The translations under genes and the position numbers were made by a program. The notes beneath the pieces were generated by a model. That model was not told the DNA's origin, did no database searches, and saw only the letters and a list, made by a program, of their open reading frames with translations. 64,000 bases of DNA from Tridacna crocea (lineage: Eukaryota; Mollusca; Bivalvia; Cardiida; Cardiidae), in the NCBI GenBank assembly GCA_943736015.1, contig OX031059.1, forward strand, positions 17,422,001 through 17,486,000. The letters run 5' to 3'. This document shows, in pieces, positions 404 through 61,972 of this stretch; the first letter of the stretch is position 1; each line of letters opens with the position of its first letter.

Positions 404-630
404 TTAACTCATTGCCAAACGACAAAATTTTAGGTTTGTCCAAATTGAAAGCATTTGCAGACAATAAAATAAATGTGAAGAAAGGTTTGAAATTTGTTTT
501 GTGAAGGGTAGAAAACATTGTGGGAAAAGGAGAAAATGCTGGTTACCAGCATTTTCTCCTTTTCCCACAATGTTTTCTAAAGGCTTCTTTCTTGGGGATC
601 AAAAGTAGGGATTGTGTGGTTATGGGTTAA
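404..630 (+). mobile_element. PBpal MITE, reference full-length copy
   Basis: TTAA at both ends (404-407 and 627-630). The long arm has the TTTAGGTTTGTCCAAATTG and GCAGACAATAAAATAAATG motifs. The perfect 67-bp palindrome is at 511-577: a 33-bp arm starting GAAAACATTGTGGGAAAAGG, one central T, then the exact reverse complement. The short arm carries GGCTTCTTTCTTGG and ends in GGTTATGGGTTAA. There is no coding capacity. TTAA target duplication and CCCTTT-like ends point to piggyBac-superfamily mobilisation. Confidence 0.85.
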
Positions 631-1472: not shown

Positions 1473-1700
1473 CTATTAAAGTGCCTTTCATAACTGTTGA
1501 TCTTTTGGCAAATGTAAATATGGATCAGACTGCACAAAACATGCATTCTGATCTTTGACCCAGGATGTCTGCTTATTATCTTTTAACTGTTTGTGAAATC
1601 ATTTGGAGCTGACATATTAAAAGTACACACTATAGTGACAAAGCCATCCTCTGTGCAGTGAGATATTTTCCCCCTGCCCAATGTGGAGGGATATAGTATT

Positions 1701-1905
1701 CTTACGAACGAAGTCCGTAACAAAGAAACAAATGAATAAATGCATGGCAGAAATAAGGGTCGGAGCGGGATTCGAACTCCAAACTCCCGGACGCAAAGCC
1801 AATACCCTAACCACTGAGCCAAAGAGATATCTCCCTGACGCAGTAGCCAGGTATTGTATTTAAATCGGGAGTATGCCATGCAGGAAGGAGTGGTCTCCCG
1901 TAACA
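1701..1905 (-). repeat. TRIM 3' LTR
   Basis: This is the 205-bp LTR following the purine tract. It is about 98% identical to the copy at 2023-2226 by direct reading. Confidence 0.85.
1767..1821 (-). promoter_or_regulatory. tRNA-type Pol III promoter in the 3' LTR
   Basis: Same A box (1809-1821) and B box (1767-1779) at an offset of 322 bp from the other LTR. From here a Pol III transcript would read out into flanking DNA. Confidence 0.7.
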
Positions 1906-1920
1906 CACCCCCTCTTAAAA
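1906..1920 (-). promoter_or_regulatory. Polypurine tract of the TRIM
   Basis: On the minus strand AAGAGGGGGTG runs straight into the TGTTA start of the 3' LTR, the expected place for plus-strand priming. Confidence 0.7.
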
Positions 1921-2003
1921 TCATCATTTATTGATGACTCAAAGCCTTATTAGGCAGGAAGTCCGATTTTGGACAACAAATGGGATTAATGGCTCAATGG
2001 CCG

Positions 2004-2021
2004 ATCCCGGACGAGCCCCCA
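2004..2021 (-). promoter_or_regulatory. Primer-binding site for tRNA-Pro
   Basis: The plus strand reads ATCCCGGACGAGCCCCCA, identical to the last 18 nt (with CCA) of animal tRNA-Pro. In minus orientation it lies one base downstream of the 5' LTR, where reverse transcription is primed. Confidence 0.88.
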
Positions 2022-2022
2022 T

Positions 2023-2226
2023 CTTACGAACGAAGTCCGTAACAAAGAAACAAATGAATAAATGCATGGCAGAAATAAGGGTCGGAGCGGGATTCGAACT
2101 CCGAACTCCCGGACGCAAAGCCAATACCCTAACCACTGAGCCAAAGAGATATCTCCCTGACGCAGTAGCCAGGTATTGTATTTAAATCGGGAGTATGCCA
2201 TGCAGGAAGAGTGGTCTCCCATAACA
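2023..2226 (-). repeat. TRIM 5' LTR
   Basis: This is the 204-bp LTR next to the primer site. It differs from the partner LTR by A/G in the B-box flank, a one-base indel and one base beside the terminal TGTTA. Confidence 0.85.
2089..2143 (-). promoter_or_regulatory. tRNA-type Pol III promoter (A and B box) inside the 5' LTR
   Basis: The A box TGGCTCAGTGG (plus 2131-2143 region) matches TRGCNNAGTGG. The B box AGTTCGAATCC (plus 2089-2101 region) matches GGTTCGANTCC at 10 of 11 positions. They are 43 nt apart start to start, as in tRNA genes. The acceptor stem is not convincing, so this is a tRNA-derived promoter rather than a tRNA gene. Confidence 0.75.
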
Positions 2227-2231
2227 GTATT

Positions 2232-5668: not shown

Positions 5669-6645
5669 TTTTTAGCTCCATTATATCATGGCCTGGTGTC
5701 TGTTGTGCATGCGTGAATGCATTAACTTTCATTTCAAACATCTTCTCTGAAACTACCCGTCCAAATATGATGAAACCTCACAAAAGTTATCTTGCTTTGA
5801 TCCTCTTCAGAATTTCTTGAAAGAAATTGATTCCTTCAAAAACTGACCAAAATTGAAAAAGAAATCAAGTTTTAAAAATGTTCTTCTCTGAAACCACAAG
5901 GCCCAGGGCTACTGAATTTGGTATGAAGCTTTATTTATTGGACCTATAGCAACAAATTTCTTTATAATAATTATTATATCCATTCCAGGGGGTCACAAGT
6001 TAAACATGAGCGTCCATATGTAGTCATTTCAATTTTAATATTAATAAAGGGAAATAACTCTTGTTATAAAGGAAAAAGTTTGTCACTGTTTACCTCCCTT
6101 TATTATCAGACTGCAGTGATACTTGATGGTGCTATATATTAAAGTTTTTTGATGGAGAGTTTCCTGTTTTCAGGTAGAGTGAATCATTTTGATGCTATTA
6201 GTTATGCTCACTTAAGTGGAATATTAAATTTAAAGTAAGGTTTCTATCGTTCAGTTTTTTCCCCCAAGAACTCCATCTTTCATGCCAGTGAATAAACCTG
6301 CTTGTATTTCGTGACAGTGTTCATTGTTTTCAAAGGCCATCTTTTTCAGGGTCATGAAAACCTCAAATTGTGTTGTAAACTTTACCCCATAAGATATTTC
6401 TATGGTATCTCTAATTGACCCTAAATAACAGCAAGGATGAAGCCGTTTCTTATGTGTGTATGTGACACCTTTTGATAGTGTTGAAAACATTGTGGCAAAA
6501 GGTGAAATTGCTCGTTACGAGCAATTTCACCTTTTGCCACAATGTTTTCCAAAGGCTCCTACAAGCAATCTGTAGAAATGAGTATCTGTGGAGTAAAGGG
6601 TTAAAAAGAAAGTGGATTGATACAAAGCTATCATGGCCCTCTTTG
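5669..6645 (+). mobile_element. Helitron-like element, decayed copy
   Basis: Starts TTTTTAGCTCC like the copy at 10771. It shares a 3' section of about 650 bp with that copy (AAGGGAAATAACTCTT, GATGCTATTAGTTATGCTCAC, TTCATGCCAGTGAATAAAC). It ends at a degraded hairpin, AGCTATCATGGCCCTCTTTG. The tandem core is almost lost. A subfamily B MITE sits inside. Confidence 0.65.
6379..6604 (+). mobile_element. PBpal subfamily B MITE
   Basis: The outer arms differ from the main type (TACCCCATAAGATATTTC; ATCTGTGGAGTAAAGGGTTAA). The centre at 6483-6549 is a perfect 33-bp inverted repeat with GGCAAAAGGTGAAATTGCTC: four positions differ from the main type and every one is mirrored in the other arm. The left TTAA is lost. 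Confidence 0.8.
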
Positions 6646-10770: not shown

Positions 10771-12442
10771 TTTTAGCTCCACTGGCCGAAGGCCAGCGGG
10801 CTAATGTCATGGCCCGTTGTCCGTCGTGCGTCCGTCCGTCCGTCCGTCCGTTAACTTTTTCTTTAAACATCTTCTTCTCTGAAACTACCCATCCAATTTT
10901 GATGAAACTTCACAGAAATGATCCTGTCATGGTCCTCTTCAGAATTTCTTGAAAGAATTTAATTCCTTCAAAAACTCTGGTTGCCATGGCAACAAAACTG
11001 AAAAATTTTAAAAATCTTTGAAAATCTTCTTGTCTGTAACCGTAAGGCCTAGGGCTACCAAATTTTGCATGTAGCTTTATCTAGTGGACCTCTACCAAGT
11101 TTCTTCAAATTATAGCCCTGGGGTCAAAATTGGCCCCGCCCCGGGGGTCACAAGTTTTACATGGGCTTATTTAGAGAGAACTTTAAAATTCCTCTTCTAC
11201 CTAGGCATAAGACCTAGGGCTACCAAATTTGGCATGTAGTTTTATCTAGTGGACCTCTACCAACAGTGTCCAAATTATAGCCCTGGGGTCAAAATTGGCC
11301 CCGCCCCGGGGGTAACAAGTTTTACATGGGCTTATATAGGGAGAACTTTAAAATTCTTCTTCCACCTAGCCATAGGGCCTAGGACTACCAAATTTGGCAT
11401 GTAGCTTTATCTAGTGGACTTCTACCAAGGGTGTCCAAATTATAGCCCTGGGGTCAAATTTGGCCCCGCCCCGGGGGGTAACAAATTTTACATGGGCTTA
11501 TATAGGGAAACTTTAATAATCTACTCGTACCTAGCTGTAAGGGCTAGGGCTATCAAATTTTGCATGTAACTTCATCTAGGGGGTCTCTACCAAAGGGTGC
11601 CCAAATTATAGCCCCGGGGTCAAATTTAGCCCCGTCACAGTGGGTCACAAGTTTTACATGGGCTTATATAGGGAAACTTTGATAATCTACTTGTACATAG
11701 CCATAAGGCCTAGGGCTACCACATTTTGCGTGTAGCTTTATCTTATGGGCCTCTACCAAGAGGGCCCAAATTTTAACTTTGGGGGTCAAGTTTGACCCCA
11801 CCCCAGGGGTCACAAGTTTTATATTGGCTTTTACAATGAAAACTTGATAAACCTGTCTCATGGGTCACATATTTTAGAGGGCCTTTTATTGAGCAAACTT
11901 GTTTTACAGGGCTTTTTATTGGGCAAGATTAAAAAATCTTCTTGTTTATAAACACACATTTTAGTTTCATATTGTAGGTCTGGGGTCAAAATTGCCTCCA
12001 TTCAGGGATCACAAGTTTAACATGGGCTTCAAAATATAGTCACTTCAATTTAAACATTAATCAAGGGAAATAACTCTTTTTATGAAAGCTAAAGTTTGGT
12101 ACTATTTACTTCCCTTGATTATCAAACTGCTTTGATACATGATTGGTGCTAGACATTAAGTTTTTTGATAGTAAATATTCTGTTTTCAAGGAGTGTGATT
12201 CATTTTGATGCTAATAGTTATGCTCACATGAGGTGAATAATAAATTCAGAGTAAGGTTTTTATCATTCAGCTTATTTTTCCAAGGATTTTACCTTTCATG
12301 CCAATGAATTAATCTACTTGTATTGCCTGACAGTGTTCATTGTTTTTGAAGGCCCTCTTTTTCATGGTCATGAACACTTCAATTTGTGTGGTAAAGGGTT
12401 AAAAAGCCAGTGGAGCGATACAGGGCCATCATGGCCCTCTTG
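10771..12442 (+). mobile_element. Helitron-like (pearl/HINE-type) non-autonomous element
   Basis: Begins TTTTTAGCTCC, followed by the subterminal hairpin CTGGCCGAAGGCCAG and a (GTCC)n microsatellite at about 10830-10850. A core of about five 165-166 bp tandem units follows; CAAGTTTTACATGGGCTTAT recurs at 11151, 11316, 11482, 11648 and 11813. A unique 3' section then ends in AGGGCCATCATGGCCCT (8-bp stem, 1-nt loop) plus CTTG. No Rep/helicase is present. It is inserted in a PBpal copy without a long target duplication. Confidence 0.75.
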
Positions 12443-12660
12443 TTTTACAACAATGGGGAACATGGCTTTTGCAAACACTGTTGGAGAAAGAGAAAATGCT
12501 GGTAACCAGCCTATTCTCCATTTCCTTGAATGTTCCTGTCCATTGAAAACCACATCTCTCTATCTTACCTACAATTGTCATTCTGCAAGTGCAGTTGATT
12601 TAGAGAGGTTTAGATTTTCGTCGTTAAGAAAAGACATAAATCCTGAAGAGCTGAAAAATT
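12443..12660 (-). mobile_element. PBpal MITE, distal part of the split copy
   Basis: Continues the copy begun at 10751: GGCTTTTGCAAACACTGTTGG, centre GGTAACC, then a worn long arm. Confidence 0.65.
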
Positions 12661-12895
12661 GAAAAGAGGCATTCTCCGTACCAATGGTGGTAGTTTCAAA
12701 GATCTTTGTCTTGATAATGACAGACGCAAACAGTGATGATCAAGGAAATTAGCAGCATACAATTTCGATAATATGGATGTAGACTAAATTTTAGATACAT
12801 GATACTTAGAATGACATCAAGTAGACAATGTTGACTCTTTACCAGTCTACAAAATTTTAGACTGTTCCAAATTCAAAGCAGTATCCTGTGTTTTA

Positions 12896-13124
12896 CTTCT
12901 TTACCAAACAACAAAATTTTAGACTGGTCGAAATTGAAAGCACCTGCAGATGACTAAATAAAAGTGACTGAACATTTGAAATTTGTTTTGGGATGGTTAG
13001 AAAACATTGTGGAAAAAAAAGGAGAAAATGCTGGTCACCAGCATTTTCTCCTTTTCCCACAATGTTTTCAAAAGAATTCTATCTTGGGGTCATAAAAACC
13101 ATGGATTGTTTGGGAAAGAGTTAA
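12896..13124 (+). mobile_element. PBpal MITE
   Basis: Intact arms and centre (with extra A residues at about 13014). A long-arm terminus of another copy lies at 12834-12890. The right TTAA (13121-13124) is shared with the following copy. Confidence 0.8.
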
Positions 13125-13341
13125 CTGAGACGGAAGCCTGTCGAAAACAGTGTGGGAAAAGGAGAAAATGGTGGTAACCGAGACATAAGCCTTTAAAAAA
13201 AATTGTGGAAAAAGGAGAAAATGCTGGTTACCACAATGTTTTTACCATTCACAAAGCAAATTACAGTTCTTTAGTCACTTCAGTCTGCGAATGATTTCGA
13301 TTTGTACCAGTTTAAAATTTTGTTGTTTGGTAAAGAGTTAA
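13121..13341 (-). mobile_element. PBpal MITE with rearranged centre
   Basis: The short arm plus left palindrome arm is present twice in direct order (GAGACGGAAGCC and GAGACATAAGCC), and the right palindrome arm is mostly lost. The long-arm end is GTTTGGTAAAGAGTTAA. Confidence 0.75.
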
Positions 13342-13589
13342 GCCTCCCCTTTGCCAGAGCACGACTCATATTTAGAAGGCAATTTTCACCAAGATCTGTG
13401 CTGCTTTCACTTTTCAGGAAGAAATGACTTAACTCTTCACCAAAGGTCAGAATTTCAGCCTGAAGAGCCATATTCCTTTTAGTGGAGAAATCAAGAGCTT
13501 GTTTTGTAAAGAGTGAACAAGAAAGTCATTGACCTTATAATATACACTTATGAATTATGAATAGAATGTTGTCATGCCATTGAATGGTA

Positions 13590-14215
13590 TACTTTTTTGT
13601 AGACAGCAAAACTGTAGACTTGTTCCAATTGAGAGTATTTACTGACGACAAATGTGGATAGAATACCTGTGAATGGGCCAAAATAAAAAAAAACTCCCTG
13701 GGATAAAGAGAAATTGCTGGCTAATAGCATTTTCTCCTTTTCCAACAATGTTTTCGAAGACCTTCTTTTTCAGGGTTATGAGAACTCTGGATTGTGTGGA
13801 AAAGGCTTAATCTTTTACAATTCATTTTGATTACTCTGAAGAAGAAAGCTTTTGATTTCAATGTGGGAAGAAGGGAAACCAAAAATGTCTCCTTTTTCTG
13901 CAATGTTTCCCATCCTGCCAAAGACAAATCAATCAGTGAAATGACTTCACTATACATGTATTGTCTTCAGATTCTTCACTATATTGTCTTCAAATTCCTT
14001 CAGTGTGGAAGAGCAGAATTCTAATGTGTAAAGAGTTAACCCTTTGCAAAAATATACTGATTGTACATGAACATGAAGTAGGCCTTTGAAAACACTGGGA
14101 AACAGACAGTGCTGATAACCAATGCTTCTTTTTTCACATTGTTTTCTACCCTTGAATTAAAAGACGAATTTCAAGTTGTTAGCTTCATTAAATATAATGT
14201 TTGGCTCAAAAGTTA
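13590..14215. mobile_element. Chain of three PBpal copies sharing TTAA sites
   Basis: Plus copy 13590-13810, minus copy 13807-14039, degenerate minus copy from 14036. Each junction has a single TTAA. The second and third have diverged centres. Confidence 0.7.
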
Positions 14216-14599
14216 AATTCAATATGAGCAAGGCCAAAACTTCTTCTCTAATAGAGAGATAAGTCCCATGGGATATCTAGATGAGAGCAGGGAGATCACC
14301 TCAGATTTCTACCTTTTTTGTGATGCATGACATTGTCATACTGACACCATCATTTGGCACCTATCGGTTCCATTGTCATTTCCATGCTGTAGTTTGGCAC
14401 AAATTGGTGAACTTTCCTTTTCCAGATGAATGTTATTTTACCGAGAGTCAGGCATCTTGTGGTTATCACCAGGATTTCGCTCTTTTCTGATACTGTAAAA
14501 TAAAGATAAAAGTAAAAGATAGAGGTCTACAAATACCGCAGTAATTGAAATGTGACTTGATAGCTGACATTATGTCCCCCTGATACTGGATAGTTCATT
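14216..14599. other. No recognisable feature
   Basis: Intron sequence; an open frame at 14281-14490 has no recognisable domain or splice context. Confidence 0.45.
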
Positions 14600-14800
14600 G
14601 CAAGAGGACAAAACATGTTTTCTGAATTTAAAAGCATTTTGTGACCACATAATAATGGTATTTATGTGACAGAATTTTCTTTGAAAGGATGGAGAACATT
14701 GTGGGAAAAGGAGAAAATACTGGTTAACAGCATTTTCTTTTTGTACCACAGTGCTTTGAAGAACCTTGTCCATGAAGTCGGAATTGTCTGGGATAAAGTT
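14600..14800 (+). mobile_element. PBpal MITE, degenerate
   Basis: Centre recognisable (GAACATTGTGGGAAAAGG...CACAGTGCTTTG); both termini lost. Confidence 0.6.
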
Positions 14801-15183
14801 CGAGGTTGAAGCCTCCAAAAGTTCTCAACCAAAGGTTACCTATAATTCTTTTGTCTGAAGTTTCCTTGAACAGAAGTGCTTGGATTTTAAATTTGAACTA
14901 GCTTTTGTGTATTAAAGAAAACCATTGTGAATAACATATACCAAATTGAAATAAGAAAAAGTTTTATCTAAAAACTTGATAGGGTTTTCTTTGACCCTAT
15001 GTGGAAGTAGACTCCCATATTTTCCTGCCCATGGAGGTGCTTGTTTACCCCAAGAGAGTTTGCACTTTCTGGACAATATCAGTCTTAAAACCATCTTAAC
15101 CCCTAAAGCCCAATATGAACCCAAAAGATATTACCAGTCTAGATTATAATTATTACTCAAATAGTCACAATTACAAAGTCTGC

Positions 15184-15642
15184 TTAACCCTTTACCAAAC
15201 GACAAAATTTTAGACTGGTCCAAATTGAAAGTGCTTGCAGAAGACAAAATAAACGTTACTCAAATATCAAAATTTGTGTCCAGCAGGAAAGAAAACATTG
15301 TGGGAAAAGGAGAAAATGCTGGTTACCAGCATTTTCTCCTTTCCCGCACAATGTTTTCTAAAGTCTTCTATCTCAGGGTCGTAAAATCCAGGGATTGTTC
15401 GGTAAAGGGTTGAAGTGTTTAATCCTTTACAGTAATTACCACACAATGACGATTTTTAATGACCCTGAGGAAGAAGCCTTTTGAAAACAGCGTGGGAAAA
15501 GGAGAAAATGCTGGTAACCAGCATTTTGTCCTTTTCCCACAAAGATGGACAAAATTGCATCATGTGAGCCACTCTGAAATTGGCATCTGAAACTGATTTC
15601 AATTGGATAGGTCCAAAATTTTGCTGTGTGGTAAAGATTTAA
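15184..15642. mobile_element. PBpal plus copy followed by a minus copy
   Basis: 15184-15413 (TTAACCC...GGGTTGA; centre with one insertion, TTCCCGCACAATG) and 15419-15642 (TTAA both ends; right half of the centre shortened). Confidence 0.8.
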
Positions 15643-15795
15643 AGTGTTTCAGTAAAGCAAACAATGTAGATCAAAGATCAGGCTACACCTGGTGCAGCCT
15701 GATCTTGATCTATATTGGACACAAAGGCAACCAAAGTTGTGAAAGGTGCTGTATGAAGGTGGGTTGGCATGTTAACGCTGAAAAAGGGGAGTAAG
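15639..15795 (+). mobile_element. GACTGCA-dyad MITE, partial
   Basis: Starts at the TTAA shared with the PBpal copy. Dyad ATCAGGCTACACC...GTGCAGCCTGAT, then GGACACAAAGGCAACC and GTGAAAGGTGC motifs seen in other copies. Confidence 0.6.
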
Positions 15796-16071
15796 CATTA
15801 TCAGCCTCTGTAAACAATGAATAACAGTGTTGTGTCCCTTGGATTTGAGGCAATATGGAATATGTACATGGTGACTTGAAAAAAGTTGGTGCTTTTCAAA
15901 GGGTTTTGCTGCTATGGTTCATAGGTAGCAGTTTTACTGTGTTACTTATGTACCCTAGTTTTCATGGCAGAGAGATCAGAAATCATGGATTATGCAATCT
16001 GATCCCTGATAATTGTCCACTTTATATCTTGGAAAGGTTGATCTTTCATCCTTTACTACACAATCTGGACT

Positions 16072-16325
16072 TTAACCCATTACCACTCAATCCCTACTTT
16101 TGACGCCCCTGAGAAAGAAGCCTTCTGAAAACACTATAGGAAAAGGAGAAAATGCTGGTAACCAGCATTTGAGAAAATGCTGGTAACCAGCATTTTCTCC
16201 TTTTCCCACAATGTTTTCTACCCTTTCCAGAACAAATTTCAATTTTTCAGTCACCTTTATTTTGTCGTCTGCAAATGCTTTCAATTTGAACCAGTCTAAA
16301 ATTTTGTCGTGTGGTAAAGAGTTAA
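16072..16325 (-). mobile_element. PBpal MITE with duplicated palindrome tip
   Basis: TTAA to TTAA. The 25-bp hairpin tip GAGAAAATGCTGGTAACCAG... (16148 onward) occurs twice in tandem, making the centre longer than usual. Confidence 0.8.
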
Positions 16326-16432
16326 AACATCTTGAGAAAGAAGGCTTTGAAATGCTGGTTGCAATTTCTGCTTTTCCCACAATTCTAAGCTTTCAAAGAC
16401 TGCATGTGTTTTGCAGTCCAATCATGTTTGCT

Positions 16433-16657
16433 ACCCTTTACCCCATAAGGCATTTCTGTGGTATCTCTAACTGACCCTAAATAACAGCAAGGATGAAGCT
16501 GTTTCTTATGTATATATGACACCTTTTAATATTGTAGAAAACATTGTGGCAAAAGGTGAAATTGCTCGTCACAGCAGTTTCACCTTTTGCCACAATGTTT
16601 TCCAAAGGCTCATACAAGCAATGCGTAGAAATGAGTATCTATGGAGCAAAGGGTTAA
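16433..16657 (+). mobile_element. PBpal subfamily B MITE
   Basis: Same arms as the copy at 6379 (TACCCCATAAGGCATTTC, ATCTATGGAGCAAAGGGTTAA). The tip of its palindrome is mutated (CGTCACAGCAG). Confidence 0.75.
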
Positions 16658-16830
16658 TTTGTACACTGCAATAACTAGCTTTGATTTAGGCAAGACTAAA
16701 ATTTGTCAGTAGCAAGTCTTCCAGTTTTAAAATTGTCTTGTATATTTACCGATACTTTGAGTTTGGTTCATAGTGATGGCTTTTGCTGACAACATTATTA
16801 CAAAAGTAGTGATATATGCCAACCAACAGC

Positions 16831-17059
16831 ATAACTCTTTACCACATAACAAAATTTTAGACCGGTTTAAATTGAAAGCATTTGCATACAACAAAATAAA
16901 GGTGACTGAAAAATTGAAATTTGTTTTGTGAAGAGTAGAAAGCATTATGGGAAAAGGAGAAAATGCTGGTTACCAGCATTTTCTCCTTTTCCTACAATGT
17001 TTTCTAAAGGCTTCTTTCTCAGGGGCATCACAAGTAGGGATTTTGTGGTAATGGGATAA
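16831..17059 (+). mobile_element. PBpal MITE, just upstream of the second SSBP exon
   Basis: Almost intact; the right end is GGTAATGGGATAA. It ends 46 bp before the exon's first base, so the hairpin lies near the polypyrimidine tract and branch site. Confidence 0.8.
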
Positions 17060-17105
17060 TCAAACATGATAAATAATATTTCTATTTGTGATTCCCTTTC
17101 GCTAG

Positions 17106-17162
17106 CCTCCTGGCTCCCAGCCTTCACCCCATTCAGGGCCCCCTATGATGGGCCAAAATCAA
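17106..17162 (+). CDS. SSBP: SSBP2/3/4 (Ssdp) next internal exon
   Basis: This is a 57-bp exon (19 codons, phase 0) with acceptor tttcgctag (to 17105) and donor gtgagtac (from 17163). The translation PPGSQPSPHSGPPMMGQNQ matches vertebrate GPPGSQPSPHAQPPPHNPSSMMGPHSQ, with a few residues missing in the middle. Spliced to the exon ending at 8093 it gives ...PPGFFP-PPGSQPSPH..., the same order as human ...PPGFFQ-GPPGSQPSPH.... In vertebrates the next residues are PFMSPRY. I did not find an exon encoding an equivalent further right, so the following intron is either longer than 46 kb or that exon was missed. Confidence 0.9.
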
Positions 17163-17526
17163 GTGAGTACATCGTATAGTATCCATGTGTGTTGTGTTGT
17201 GAGTAGTCGAGTATATGTGTTGTACTTCTCTAACAGGACTTTATAAACGGTACCAGCTACCATTCTTTTTTCGGAAGCTTTCTTCTACATGGCAGTTTTG
17301 ACCATACAAGCTGTATATAGATTTCCACATACTTGTGGTAGTAACATTCTGATTCAGGAGAAAAAGTTGAAGGAAAAGAATACCGAGTTTTGACTGAAAA
17401 AAAAGTACACATTAGATTGTACTTACCGAAAGATGGTCTTGAAGTTTTGATGTATTGGTTTTGCAACAGCAGCCAGTGGTCTCAAAATAGTAGCTGTTTC
17501 CTGTAGTTCTTGAAAAGATACACCAG

Positions 17527-17712
17527 GTCCCATATTCACCAACCATTCTGAAGAACATTCTTGGTCTTATTCTTCAAGAATTCATGACTGTGAAAGTAAC
17601 AGAACTTCTGATTGGCTAAACCATTTGGTTTTGCCAATCAGAAGTTCTTTTACTTTCAAATTGACAAAAAGATTCACAGGAATGTATTACACAAGTCCCA
17701 CTTGGGTACTGA
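17527..17712. mobile_element. Foldback MITE, right end truncated
   Basis: Starts CCAGGTCCCATATTCACCAACC. The arms meet at CTGATTGGCTAAACCATTTGG...GCCAATCAGAAG; the outer right part is missing. Confidence 0.7.
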
Positions 17713-18638
17713 ACTCTTGTTAAAAACAGGTCTTACTTTAAATATTCTTGTGAACCTTGTAGTGACTTCTTGCCTCTCATTTCCTATCAATAACAACAAA
17801 TGATAAATAAATCTACTCTATGAATTTTACAAGAGTAAATGGGTTTGTCGACATGAGGAACAGTTTGCCTGTAAAAGAACTTTCTAGAATTTCCTATAGA
17901 AAAGTAACAGCAAAAGCCAATGTACCACAACTGGCCCGAGCTCTCATATCAGTCTGTTCTGGTGAAAGAATTCCGATAGGCCTCTGCTTAGAATCACTAA
18001 TACCAATAAAATAATTATCAAGAAAAGAGCGATATATGTAAATAAAGACAAGTATGGTTTTATTGCTCAGAAATTGTCTGAAATTCTTAATTTTACAACA
18101 GATTTTCATATTTTCAAATATGAGCGCATTATACAACAAATTTTCAGATTTTCAAATTTCGTCTGTATTTTTTTGTCAATAATCAAACATGTTCTCTCAT
18201 TTTCTCTATTCTATTTATTTGTAGCATCTAACCTAGAAGTTTTTAATCTGATCTATAACATTTAATAACAACTCTATACTAGTGTTCCATTTCTAGGTTT
18301 GGATATGTGGTACAGTAGTTTCGAAATGTGACAACATCCCATTTTCTTTTGCTCTCAAGCTCCGTTTCTACTCACTAGAGAAGCTCATTATAACAAAGAT
18401 GTTGGACAGCAACAAAGGGAAAGCACTAAAGCTTTTTCTAGATTTTCCAAAACTTGGATTAGCTCCCTTTAGCTCAAACTAGACAAAATGAGTCTTTGAG
18501 ATGGTATGTTAAGATTTAAGAAATAAGGCATTGAAAACCCTGAAAGCTAACTATTAGTGGATTCTTCATTTTAAAGTATTAACAAATCTTCTGTGTAGTT
18601 TCGTAATCACTTTCTCCAAGTCTCTTGTATGTTAAGGT
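17713..18638. other. No recognisable feature
   Basis: AT-rich; short open frames only, with no repeat shared with other parts of the window. Confidence 0.5.
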
Positions 18639-30499: not shown

Positions 30500-31680
30500 A
30501 CGGTATAAAGTGCAGTCTGGTCATGATCAAGAGTTACCAGCAAGGCATCTTACCAACACTAAATACCAAGCATGTAAAACTATGTTGCCTTGATCAACAA
30601 CTAATGCCTAAAAGTTATCTGGTCTTGACCAACAATAAATGCCAAACATCTATGTATAACCTTGTAGCGATGACCAGCAACACATTCCAAGTACCTAATG
30701 TTACCAGGTCATGATCAACAAACATTCAAAGCATCATAAGTGCACTTGTTTTGACCAACAATATATTTCAGGCCTCAAAAAATATATGGTCTCGACCAAC
30801 AATTAATGCCAAGCATCTAAAGTTGTCTGGTCTTGACCAACAGTAGATTCCAAACACAAACTGTCATCTGGTCTCGATCAAAAATGCATTAAAAGCATCT
30901 AAAAATATCTTGGCTTGACATACAATACAAGCCAAGCATCTAAAGCTATATGGTTTCGACCAACAGTGCAATGTTGATCGAGAAGGGATAGCTCTAATTG
31001 CTTGGGATGCATTGTTGGTGGAGAAAGGATAGCTTTCATTGCTTGGAATGCAATGAAAGCTATCCTTTCTGGACCAACAATGCATCCCAAGCAATTAGAG
31101 CTATCCTCTCTCAACCAACAATGCATCCCAAGTAATTTAGAGCTATATTTTCTGGACCAACAATACATCCCAAGCAATTAGAACTATCCTATCTTGACCA
31201 ACAATGCATCCCAAGGAATTAGAGCTATCCTATCTTGACCAACAATGCATCCCAAGGAATTAGAGCTATCCTATCTTGACCAACAATGCATCCCAAGGAA
31301 TTAGAGCTATCCTATCTTGACCAACAATGCATCCCAAGGAATTAGAGCTATCCTTTCTCAACCAACAATGCATCCCAGACAATTAGAGCTACATTTTCTG
31401 GACCAACAATGCATCCCAAGCAATAAGAGCTATCCTATCTCGACCAACAATGCATCCCAAACAATTAGAGCTATCCTATCTCGACCAACAATGCATCCCA
31501 AACAATTAGAGCTATCCTATCTTGACCTACAATGCATCCAAGCAATTAGAGCTATCCTATCTCGACCAACAATGCATCCCAAGCAATTAGAGCTATCATA
31601 TCTCGACCAGCAATGCATCCCAAGCAATTAAAGCTATCCTGTCTCGACCAACAATGCATCCCAAGCAAAGAAGGCTTTCT
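30500..31680 (+). repeat. 41-bp minisatellite array with an internal inversion
   Basis: The unit contains GACCAACAATGCATCCCAAG and GAATTAGAGCTATCC. In the homogeneous part GACC recurs at 31196, 31237, 31278 and 31319, i.e. every 41 bp. Units left of about 30950 are highly diverged (AACAATAAATGCCAAACATC). Around 30975-31065 units are inverted and face a direct block, forming a hairpin. Open frames through the array are by-products. Confidence 0.85.
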
Positions 31681-31741
31681 GGTATTTAGCAACAAAGCAT
31701 TGCAAAGCAAGTAAATCCAACCTTAGAAATCATATCGGTTA

Positions 31742-35925: not shown

Positions 35926-36358
35926 TTAACCCATTACCACACAATCCCTACTTTTGATGACCCTGAGAAAGAAGCCTTTGGAAAACATTGTGGGAAAAGA
36001 GAAAATGCTGGTAACCAGCATTTTCTCCTTTTCCCACAATGTTTTCTACTCTTAGGAAAACAAATTTCAAATTTTCAGTCAGTTTTACTTTGTCGTCTGC
36101 AAATGCTTTTGATTTGGACATGCCAAAAATTTTGTCGTTTGGTAATGAGTGAAGTCTTTACCACACATTCCCGACTTTTAACAACCCTAAAGAAGAAGTC
36201 TTTGGAAAACACTGTGGGAAAAGGAGAAAATGCTGATTACCAGCATTTTCTCCTTTTCCCTCAGTGTTTTCTACTCTATCAAAGAGAGAAATCATCATTG
36301 TCTGCAAATTTTTTCAATTTGGTGACTTCCCAAATTTCGTCGTTTGGTAAAGGGTTAA
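35926..36358 (-). mobile_element. Two PBpal minus copies, end to end
   Basis: 35926-36152 (good centre) and 36153-36358 (CACTGTGGG centre with mirrored CAGTG, TTAA at the right). Confidence 0.8.
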
Positions 36359-45299: not shown

Positions 45300-46375
45300 C
45301 TAATTCTTTACTGGATAATCCCAAATTTTAACTACTTTGAGGAATGAGCCTAATTTGAAAAGATTGTTGGAAAAGGAGAAAATGCTATTTACCTGGATTT
45401 TCTCCTTTTGCCACAATGTCTTCTTCCCTTTCAAAGACAAGATGGTACCACTTAACTCATTACCACACGACAAAATTTTAGCCTGGTCCAAATTGAAAGC
45501 ATTTGCAGACTACAAAATAAAAGTGCCTGAAAAATCGAAATTTGTTCTGGGAAGGTTAGAAAACACTGTGGGAAAAGGAGAAAATGCTGGTTACCAGCAT
45601 TTTCTCCTTTTTCCAACAGGGTTTTCAAAAGGCTTCTTTCTCAGGGGCGTCAAAAGTAGGGATTGAGTGTTAATGGGTTAACTCTTAAACATGCAATCCC
45701 AACTTTTAACAACCATGAGAAAGAAGCCTATAGAAAACATTGTGGGCAAAGGAGAAAATGCTGGTAAATAGCATTTTCTACTTTTCCCACAATATTTTCT
45801 ACCCTATCTAAGACCAAAATCACTATTTAATTTGTTGTCTGCAGATGCTTGGAATCTGGTCCAGTCCAAAAACTGTTTGGTAAAGAGTTCACCACATTTG
45901 TCACCTGCAAGTACTTTCAATTTGGACAAGTCTTAAACCATTACCACACAATCCCTACTTTTGATGCCCCTCAGAAAGAAGCCTTTAGAAAACATTGTGG
46001 GAAAAGGAGAAAATGCTGGTAATCAGCATTTTCTCCTTTTTCCCCCTTGTTTTCTACCCTTCACAAGACAAATTTCAATTTTTCGGTTACTTTTATTTTT
46101 GTCGTCTGCAAATGTTTTGCATTTGGACCAGTCTAAAATTTTCTCGTCTGGTAAAGAGTTAAATCTTGTTGTGTTTGGAAAAGAGTTCAGATCATTATTA
46201 CTCTTTTAACAAGACGACAAAGTTTTAGACTTACCCAAAGTGAAATCAATAACAGTTGACACATATTTTTATATTTTTTGAAGGATAGAAAATGTTGTGG
46301 TAAAAGGACAAAATGCTGATTCCCAGCATATTCTCCCCTTTCCCAATGCATTTTCTAAGGCATTCATCCTTACAA
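45300..46375. mobile_element. Cluster of five PBpal copies
   Basis: 45300-45450 minus (truncated), 45452-45681 plus (full), 45678-45891 minus (shared TTAA), 45933-46162 minus (full) and 46205-46375 plus (worn). Confidence 0.8.
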
Positions 46376-46802: not shown

Positions 46803-47690
46803 GTATTATGCCCCCCTTCAAAGAAGTGGGGGTATATTGCTTTACTAATGTAGGTCGCTCGGTCGGTAGACCTTACCTTGTCTGGATAATAGCTAGACAC
46901 AGAATTGACCTAGCATGGAAAAATTTGGCACAGACATGCATCTTGGAGTGTAGTTGATCCATCCCTATTGATTTTGAGGTCAAATGTCAAGGTCACAGTG
47001 ACCATTAACATGCCGATACATAGACCAAACCTTGTACGGATGATAACTAGATACAAAATTGACCTAGGTTCCTCAAATTTGGCACAGACATGCGTCTCAG
47101 AGAGTATATGATACCTATTGATTCTAAGGTCAAGGTCTCAGTGATGCCAACATGTTGATATATAGACCAAACCTTGATAACTGGACACAAAATTGACCCT
47201 AACTTCTTCAAATTTGGCACAGACATTCGTCTCAGAGTGTACATGATCCTATCTATTTTGAGGTTGATCGGTTAAATGTCAAGGTCACAGTGACCGTCAA
47301 CATGTTAATATATACCGAACTTGTCCGGATGATAAGTAGACACAGAATTTACCTAGGTTCCTCAATTTTGCACAGACATTTGTATTGGAGTGTAGATGCT
47401 CCCTATCAATTTTGAGATTAATCCATCAAAGGTCAAGGTCACAGTGTCCTTCAACTTAATGATATATAAACCAAAAGTTTTCCAGATGATAACTGGACAC
47501 AGAATTGACATAGACTCTTCGAATTCAGTACAGATCGTCATCTCGAAGTGTTAATGACCCCAATGGATTTTGAGATTAATCCATATAAGGTCACAGTGGC
47601 CTTCAACTTAATGATATATAGACCAAACCTTGTCCAGATGAAAACTACACAGAGAATCGACATACTACTGGTCAATCATGTATGTCCGAC
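46803..47690 (+). mobile_element. Helitron-like element with about 155-bp tandem core
   Basis: Starts TTATGCCCCCCTTC with the inverted GAAGTGGGGGTATA, then GGTCGCTCGGTCGG. Five to six diverged units follow (CAAATTTGGCACAGACAT at 46925, 47077 and 47213; later units decay) with AAGGTCACAGTGACC. The 3' end was not found. Confidence 0.65.
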
Positions 47691-54406: not shown

Positions 54407-56218
54407 AGCCCCTGTAAAGTCCAAAAAATGTAATTTTCACCATTGATATATCGAGAATATAACAGATAACCCACAACAGCACACATAAGATCAGAGAAAA
54501 CCCAAACGTATCAGTGATTGCATCGGTTGCCATGATATACGTGTGCAAAAATGCATGGAGAAGCCTGTCGATTTCAGGGATGCCATTGATCAAGTTAACG
54601 TTCATTTTCTTTTATGTATATTCATATTAGATCTTCGAGAACGTCGCGTTATAACATTGCATCTCATTGCATCTCATAAGTACTATGACATAGTACACAG
54701 GGCTATTGTTTACACTTACAATATTAAGTTATTGGAGAGTAAGATTGCTTATTCTGAACCTTTTTTATACGCCCGTCGATGACGGGACGTATTATGGGAT
54801 CACCCGTGACAGGCGGGCAGGTGGGCGGGCGTCCGGGCGGGCGGGCGGCGTCCAGTTCTTTGTCCGGAGCATATCTCCAAAACTATTCTACCTAGGGTTA
54901 TGAAATTTCATGGGTGGATAGATCTCATCAAGGGGGAGTGCAGTGCCCAGGAACCATAACTCTTGCTTGCTCAATTTTTGAGTTATTGCCCTTTGTCGTT
55001 TTTCATACTTGAATTTTGTCCGGAGCATATCTCCAAAACTATACTAGCTAGGGTTATGAAATTTCTTGGGTGGATAGATCTCACCAAGGGGGAGTGCAGT
55101 GCAGAGGAACCATAACCCTTGCTTGCTTAATTTTTGAGTTATTGCCCTTTGTCATTTTTCATACTTGAATTTTGTCCGGAGCATATCTCCAAAACTATAC
55201 TAGCTAGGGTTATGAAATTTCTTGGGTGAATAGATCTCACTAAGGGGGAGTGCAGTGCACAGGAACCATAACTCTTGCTTGCTTAATTTTTGAGTTATTG
55301 CCCTTTATCATTTTTCATACTTGATTTTTGTCCGGAGCATATCTCCAAAACTATACTAGCTAGGGTTATGAAATTTCATGGGTGGATAGATCTCATCAAG
55401 GGAGAGTGCAGTGCATAAGAACCATAACTCTTGCTTGCTTAATTTTTGAGTTATTGCCCTTTGTCCTTTTTTCATACTTGCCCTTTATCATTTTTCATAC
55501 TTGATTTTTGTCCGGAGCATATCTCCAAAACTATACTAGCTAGGGTTATGAAATTTCATGGGTGGATAGATCTTATCAAGGGGGAGTGCAGTGCACAGAA
55601 ATCATAACTCTTGCTTGCTTAATTTTTGAGTTATTGCCCTTTGTCGTTTTCCATACTTGAATTTTGTCCGGTGAATATCTCCAAAACTATACTAGCTAGG
55701 GTTATGAAATTTCATAGGTGGATAGATGTCATCAAGGGAGAGTGCAGTGCATAAGAACCATAACTCTTGCTTGCTTAATTTTTGAGTTATTGCCCTTTGT
55801 CGTTTTTCATACTTGATTTTTGTCTGGAGCATATCTCAAAACCTATACTAGCTAGGGTTATGAAATTTCATGGGTGGATAGATCTCATCAAGGGGGAGTG
55901 CAGTGCGCAGGAATCATAACTCTTGCTCGCTTAATTTTTGAGTTACTGCCCTTTGTCGTTTTTCATACTTGAATTTAGTCTGGTGCATGCCCCAGCTTTA
56001 CAACTTGGGGTAAGACGGGCGTATCTTGCGACAGTTTGCCGCTCTTGTTAATTCAATGTAGTAACCTTTTCCTGTATTGATGATAAAGGAATAAGTGATG
56101 ATCAGCCTGTGTTGTCATTTCTGTTTAAAATGTCAATAAACTTAGTTTTCATGGTAAAAATGAAATTCTATTGTAAAAACACATGTTTTTATATTTGGAC
56201 TTTGTTGTGACTTCTTTA
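54407..56218. mobile_element. Possible TIR element split by the Helitron-like element
   Basis: AAGCCCCTGTAAAGTCCAAA at 54405 and its weaker inverse (TTTGGACTTTGTTGTGACTT at 56198) enclose the 54767-56047 insertion. Inner inverted similarity includes ATTTTCACCAT. Confidence 0.35.
54767..56047 (+). mobile_element. Helitron-like element with seven 156-bp tandem units
   Basis: Starts ATACGCCCGTCGATGACGGG (hairpin), then a G/C-rich GGGCGGGC microsatellite at about 54812-54848. TTGTCCGGAGCATATCTCC recurs at 54860, 55016, 55172, 55328, 55508, 55664 and 55820. Spacing is 156 except for one 180 step caused by a 24-bp duplication. It ends GACGGGCGTATC, the imperfect hairpin GCGACAGTTTGCCGC, then TCTTG. 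Confidence 0.8.
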
Positions 56219-61743: not shown

Positions 61744-61972
61744 TTAACTCTTTACCACACGAGAAAATTTTAGACTGGTCCAAATTGAAAGCATTTGCAG
61801 ACAACGAAATAAAGGTGACTGAAAAATAGAAATTTGTTCTGGGGAGGGTAGAAAACACTGTGGGAAAAGGAGAAAATGCTGGTTACCAGCATTTTCTCCT
61901 TTTCCCACAGTGTTTTCAAAAGGCTTCTTTCTCAGGGGCGTCAAAAGTAGGGATTGTGTGGTAATGGGTTAA
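61744..61972 (+). mobile_element. PBpal MITE, intact, CACTG variant
   Basis: TTAA both ends; perfect palindrome 61851-61917. Very close to the copy at 60404, suggesting recent activity of this variant. Confidence 0.87.

Follow-up and report, generated by a model that had tools for sequence, protein, structure and literature searches.

The 527-bp element on the minus strand at 2226-1700 of the window (the whole 64-kb stretch of DNA analysed here) is probably a Helenus-type TRIM whose template RNA is made by Pol III from the A and B boxes of its 5' LTR. The initial annotation of this DNA had proposed a tRNA-type Pol III promoter within the LTRs, which remains the best reading, but the combination is not new, as a TRIM with a tRNA-type LTR promoter is already known as a kind in Helenus (PMC10886601). 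The features of the window copy are as follows.

1696..1699, no strand: left target site duplication GTAT, 4 bp (frame backed by genome copies)
1700..1905, minus strand: 3' LTR, 206 nt (repeat search and alignment)
1768..1778, minus strand: B box of the 3' LTR (motif)
1811..1821, minus strand: A box of the 3' LTR (read from the letters)
1906..1916, minus strand: polypurine tract AAGAGGGGGTG (read from the letters)
1906..2021, minus strand: internal region, 116 nt
1917..1920, minus strand: TTTT in the internal region of the window copy, next to the polypurine tract
2004..2021, minus strand: primer-binding site, 18 nt (exact match)
2022..2226, minus strand: 5' LTR, 205 nt (repeat search and alignment)
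2090..2100, minus strand: B box AGTTCGAATCC of the 5' LTR (motif)
2133..2143, minus strand: A box TGGCTCAGTGG of the 5' LTR (motif)
2146..2155, minus strand: palindrome GAGATATCTC, hinge of the head-to-head loci (LTR 73-82 in the 206-nt frame)
2179..2186, minus strand: TATA-like TTTAAATA, 24-31 nt upstream of the putative RNA start
2227..2230, no strand: right target site duplication GTAT, 4 bp (frame backed by genome copies)

The two LTRs (1700-1905 and 2022-2226) differ by two substitutions and one indel. The near-identical terminal repeats of the initial annotation are therefore present, but at 206 and 205 nt rather than 204 and 205, with T1700 reassigned and a unit of 527 bp. This reassignment follows from the primer site, which abuts base 2022, so that T1700 is counted in the LTR and the duplication reads GTAT (1696-1699 and 2227-2230) instead of the GTATT proposed earlier. 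With the frame set in this way, 27 of the 30 genome copies that scored best are flanked by an exact 4-bp duplication, one by a 5-bp duplication and two by none, and one of the latter sits in a tandem array; the 5-bp duplication was dropped accordingly. The other landmarks stood as first described. The primer site TGGGGGCTCGTCCGGGAT is exact at 2021-2004 of the minus strand, abutting the 5' LTR, where shuffles expect none, and we take it to be the complement of the 3' 18 nt of tRNA-Pro. The purine tract AAGAGGGGGTG lies at 1916-1906 of the same strand, and in both LTRs the A and B boxes lie on the sense strand with starts 43 nt apart and 32 nt between them, a spacing that suits tRNA genes. The internal region, at only 116 nt, is too short for LTR retrotransposon proteins.

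Resemblance to a tRNA was confined to the promoter. ARAGORN called no tRNA gene at default settings; relaxed settings returned 79 matches across the window, mostly intron-bearing, which were taken as chance. Rfam gave no tRNA match for the element, and hence the promoter part alone is recognisable as tRNA-like; the tRNA-like stretch folded no better than its shuffles (z 0.67). Within 1600-2330, Rfam showed no 5S rRNA match with E up to 1, and Rfam miRNA matches scored under their gathering thresholds and were discarded. Exact-pattern searches of viral and prokaryote collections returned zero matches.

Searching the genome (1.05 Gb, 31 contigs) with the element, a check suggested by the initial annotation, revealed a large family. 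Full-length matches at 96-100% numbered 44 among those listed, with 40 of 1,649 candidates scored. An exact internal 18-mer occurred 2,082 times (reversed control 0), an LTR 34-mer with up to 3 mismatches 5,390 times (control 0) and an exact A-box 24-mer 2,717 times (control 0). The first 100 listed A-box 24-mers, on contig 1, fell into 64 places comprising 33 doublets, one array of four and 30 singles; the doublets were spaced by 322-325 bp in 31 cases, 334 bp in one and 642 bp in one, and 17 of the 30 singles, having no exact internal 18-mer within 450 bp, are candidate solo LTRs. Tandem arrays of LTR-internal units were seen directly in the loci that were read (labelled L below). A positional sample was formed from the first 30 internal 18-mer matches on contig 1, which represent 28 places with two arrays counted once each, and 20 of its 30 loci were intact two-LTR or multi-LTR elements, including one (L042) with a palindromic 5' LTR. 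An exact 4-bp duplication was found at 18 of the 24 sampled loci examined; the other six were four decayed or truncated loci, L045 and L042, and in L042 a TTTT is readable as a duplication on both sides, supposing that the last LTR base mutated. The flanking duplications, which the earlier annotation had proposed to test at 5 bp, are mostly of 4 bp, with 5 bp in 1 of the 30 best copies. Identical LTR pairs in 17 of those 30 copies indicate a young family. Older relatives were 69-86% similar, and some had a longer inter-box stretch.

This copy structure also settles whether the element could be two adjacent, independent tRNA-derived SINEs. A single 206-bp unit does carry SINE-like A and B boxes, but the paired LTR structure, on which the initial annotation had staked its proposal, recurred in the 20 intact loci of the sample, 31 of the 33 listed doublets kept the 322-325 bp spacing, and the 4-bp duplications, primer-binding site and polypurine tract are all present. 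We therefore ruled out independent SINEs, for which we see practically no chance.

The available parts of the Helenus description (Kojima 2024, PMC10886601) define these elements as TRIMs with tRNA-like LTR sequence, found in fungi, animals and one plant, with A and B boxes, a primer-binding site and a polypurine tract. According to the same parts, bivalve Helenus primers include tRNA-Pro, animal duplications are 4 bp, tandem arrays are known for LTR-11_DR, bivalve members are recorded from Pteriomorphia only, and Pol III use is deduced from conservation, with no experiments (PMC10886601). The Pol III claim is repeated in the accessible portion of a 2026 meeting report. The element described here likewise is a TRIM, of 527 bp with a 116-nt internal region, and was intact at 20 loci of the positional sample. 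Both of its LTRs contain the two boxes at a tRNA-like distance (the loose motif pair in all but one of 103 young LTRs and in 4 of 10 older ones), a primer-binding site adjoins the 5' LTR and a polypurine tract the 3' LTR, and the duplications are of 4 bp (27 of 30 best copies, 18 of 24 sampled loci examined). Pol III transcription, the further trait proposed for Helenus and TRIMp3, is probable for this element, and the avoidance of TTTT bears on it indirectly. Since the testable defining features, the mobilising partner apart, were found here, we filed the element as a Helenus member, an assignment made by description. It adds an absence of TTTT from most young copies and integrated R-U5 palindromes, neither of which was found in the available text of PMC10886601, where a text search returned no mention of TTTT or termination.

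Other miniature elements are less similar. Cassandra is a plant TRIM with a 5S promoter in both LTRs, whose transcription is said to end within the 3' LTR (PMC10886601, available parts). Our element shares with it a Pol III-type promoter inside both LTRs, but unlike Cassandra and Ajax it has a tRNA-type promoter and, by Rfam, no 5S-derived LTR sequence, and in contrast to an ending in the 3' LTR those of its young LTRs that were read are without TTTT. The bivalve biv-TRIM, in the portions available of its description (Satovic 2019, PMC6934838), has repeats of ~200 bp, an internal region of 77-80 bp with a conserved segment, a polypurine tract that is mostly GGGGAGA, and no unambiguous primer-binding site. 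From what those portions give, the present element is similarly a bivalve TRIM with repeats of ~200 bp, but its internal region is 116 nt, its polypurine tract is another one, and the conserved biv-TRIM segment was not seen by eye. Titles and abstract openings among the papers listed in literature searches yielded no further report of a tRNA-type TRIM.

Four consecutive Ts are a stop signal for Pol III, and the LTR, which is T-rich with nine TTT runs, contains zero TTTT. Dinucleotide shuffles of the LTR expect 2.37 TTTT runs, and 3.2% of them have none (P(0)=0.032). Across copies, 28 of the 30 best were without TTTT throughout the element, the exceptions being L014 and the window copy, in which Pol III would be expected to stop at 1917..1920, ahead of the 3' LTR. 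All 20 intact elements of the positional sample, including two arrays of ~850 bp, were also without TTTT (lengths checked in best and sampled copies, 526-852 bp), and three of the four decayed or truncated sampled loci examined contained it. Among LTRs of at least 93% similarity TTTT was found in 0 of 103, compared to 7 of 10 older LTRs, in a sample that is not neutral, since roughly half of the 103 belong to copies chosen for their similarity. In some older LTRs the TTTT lies between the boxes. Mutations showed a related trend. At TTTT-prone sites of 102 LTRs, rates elsewhere predict ~13 changes to T and six were seen, all at one site and in LTRs without a TTTT run; the sequences themselves suggest that a neighbouring T was also altered. 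Genome-wide, a C-to-T change that makes TTTT (giving a T7 run) occurred in three LTRs, none paired, and its matched control in 15, among which are three pairs with a spacing of 322 bp; the corresponding G-to-T changes, at two TTTT-making versus one control, showed no depletion in counts that are uninformatively small, and the two pooled gave 5 versus 16. TTTT-making changes thus appear depleted mostly as expected, an effect that is modest and weakened by shared ancestry.

Two other accounts of these patterns have to be weighed. The absence of TTTT might reflect chance and descent, with a founder that lacked TTTT and young copies that inherited this state. The recent common ancestry of the young copies, the merely 0.032 probability for a single LTR, the G-to-T result, and the small expectation among changes present in at most two copies (2.8 TTTT-making expected, 0 seen) are all compatible with this account. 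It is nevertheless unlikely given that sampled young copies which differ between the boxes are all without TTTT, that the six changes seen against ~13 expected fall at a single site and made no TTTT run, and that the TTTT-making C-to-T change is rarer than its control (3 versus 15). Alternatively, this may be a conventional TRIM whose transcription relies on Pol II and a TATA-like U3 box, with the tRNA-like stretch a roleless relic of a SINE inserted in the LTR. Here the conservation of the boxes matters, and it was weaker than the earlier proposal required. All but one of 103 young LTRs keep the loose A/B motif pair, as do 4 of 10 older ones, but when 196 windows were ranked for low variability over 113 LTRs the A box came 32nd and the B box 101st, not clearly above the background of the whole LTR, and in this sample box conservation gave no support as functional proof. 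The least variable windows instead begin at LTR 45-48 and overlap TTTAAATA, at -31 to -24 of the putative RNA start, so that a Pol II start also fits. Avoidance of TTTT, on the other hand, is unexpected under Pol II, and young copies with the motif pair differ by no more than one base in the distance between the boxes. On balance we regard a Pol II-driven TRIM as quite unlikely.

A separate line of evidence concerns the position at which the RNA would begin. At 14 loci the primer site is followed by something other than the familiar internal sequence; most of these loci were still relatives of the element. Three of them (L071, L073, L084) consist of the reverse complement of R-U5, then R-U5, the 18-nt primer site and an unrelated flank, with no target duplication clear by eye; in a fourth (L083) a palindromic 5' LTR is followed by the internal region. 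The hinge lies at GAGATATCTC (LTR 73-82) in L071 (with one change), L073 and L083, and elsewhere in L084. An exact 30-nt head-to-head R-U5 hinge occurred at 38 places in the genome (reversed control 0), of which seven were read (L042, L073 and L086-L090). Three are bare palindromes: L086, 258 bp long, has U5 at either end and is flanked by an exact AGAC duplication, and in L088 and L089 the duplication matches at three of four bases. L042 has a palindromic 5' LTR, internal region and normal 3' LTR, L090 is a palindrome with one shortened arm joined to the internal region, and at one side of L087 the 18-nt primer site adjoins a piece of LTR. Overall, three of the ten palindromic loci read are bare, four end in a copy of the 18-nt primer site and three are joined to the internal region, and nine of the ten share the GAGATATCTC hinge.

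The simplest interpretation, to which we give slightly less than even odds, is that these loci are integrated minus-strand strong-stop cDNAs of the element. An RNA beginning with the self-complementary GAGATATCTC would allow two minus-strand strong-stop DNAs to prime each other at their 3' ends, and the resulting rcU5-rcR-R-U5 palindromes may, at least sometimes, be inserted via their U5 ends by integrase. If so, the RNA would begin ~12 nt ahead of the A box (LTR 85), where a Pol III start is expected. In window coordinates the putative start is then near 2155, at the hinge palindrome, rather than near 2190 as the initial annotation had it. It is also possible, if unlikely, that the palindromes are DNA-level rearrangements at the 10-bp palindrome, independent of reverse transcription: replication slippage at GAGATATCTC, a palindrome in its own right, could make such junctions, the hinge of L084 differs, no duplication is clear by eye in L071, L073 and L084, and the reading covers just seven of the 38 exact-hinge places. 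The structure of L086, a bare 258-bp palindrome bounded by U5 on either side and flanked by an exact 4-bp duplication, speaks against such rearrangements, as does the ending of L071, L073 and L084 at the 18-nt primer site before unrelated flank. Copying of a tRNA primer normally stops at 18 nt. Titles and abstract openings among the papers listed in literature searches gave no report of integrated strong-stop palindromes. Strong-stop integration, if true, would be a side route making promoter-bearing palindromes and perhaps the LTR's own U3.

The U3 half of the LTR resembles a degenerate mirror of the R half (window 2194-2105, minus strand; LTR 34-123 in the 206-nt frame), at 70.7% over 75 nt in L004, with a mirror of the B box seemingly absent. 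Shuffles reached the mirror score in 15 of 1000 cases for L004 and in 132 and 143 for two older LTRs, and an origin of U3 as a mirror image of R is suggestive only.

Animal Helenus families are mobilised by Gypsy elements. For the present family, a Gypsy element adjoining L073, with a SCAN-like gag and an integrase upstream of the reverse transcriptase, gives a hint of such a partner. Beyond its pol gene comes sequence that resembles the LTR ends of L076 and L077, two loci with the tRNA-Pro primer site (75% over 71-80 nt). The idea that L073 is itself an autonomous partner with the same LTR was dropped, since palindromes of this type have different flanks at L071 and L084. The 5' leader of the Gypsy element is repeated just after pol (97.5% over 200 nt; L073 1532-1729 and L085 joined 6388-6587), and beside the L073 palindrome are 24 nt that match part of the Gypsy pol exactly in reverse complement. 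L076, L077 and L079 are related elements with the tRNA-Pro primer site ~5 bases past the apparent LTR end, and the next 1.5 kb on that strand holds no frame of at least 100 codons.

Several unrelated features were observed alongside. A ~230-bp repeat has many copies in the window (404-630, 16832-17059, 35926-36153, 45452-45681, 61744-61972 and others), the pairs shown being about 81-94% alike; nearby flanking DNA contains a long near-perfect hairpin (L001 311-379), and with this hairpin in view the repeat may be a fold-back MITE. Self-comparison revealed tandem arrays in the window at 54859-55988, 11016-11850, 31050-31723 and 46867-47664, with offsets of about 156, 165, 83 or 124, and 154 bp, respectively. 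The mitochondrial contig C31 (L038-L040; 29,009 bp) contains a 97-bp unit ~70 times at 11001-17749, and part of the contig reads N; the protein genes of C31, identified by eye, share a single strand, with one weak tRNA call opposite.

Returning to a Helenus-type TRIM transcribed by Pol III, the life cycle can be outlined from the sequence features. The RNA would begin near LTR position 73, extend across the internal region and the 3' LTR, encountering no TTTT there, and end at the first TTTT in flanking DNA. It would be primed by tRNA-Pro through the enzymes of a partner Gypsy element, copied by ordinary strand transfer and integrated with a 4-bp duplication. Each new copy would regain the promoter through the repeated LTR that contains it. 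The Helenus proposal, in which SINE-like Pol III transcription is combined with LTR-type replication, gains sequence-based tests from this family, namely young copies almost free of TTTT, terminator-making changes that are rare and unpaired, and palindromes in which the RNA start may be recorded. Its thousands of copies, many of them near-identical, make the family well suited to a direct RNA test. If the host is a heterodont, as we tentatively suppose, the range of Helenus would reach beyond Pteriomorphia.
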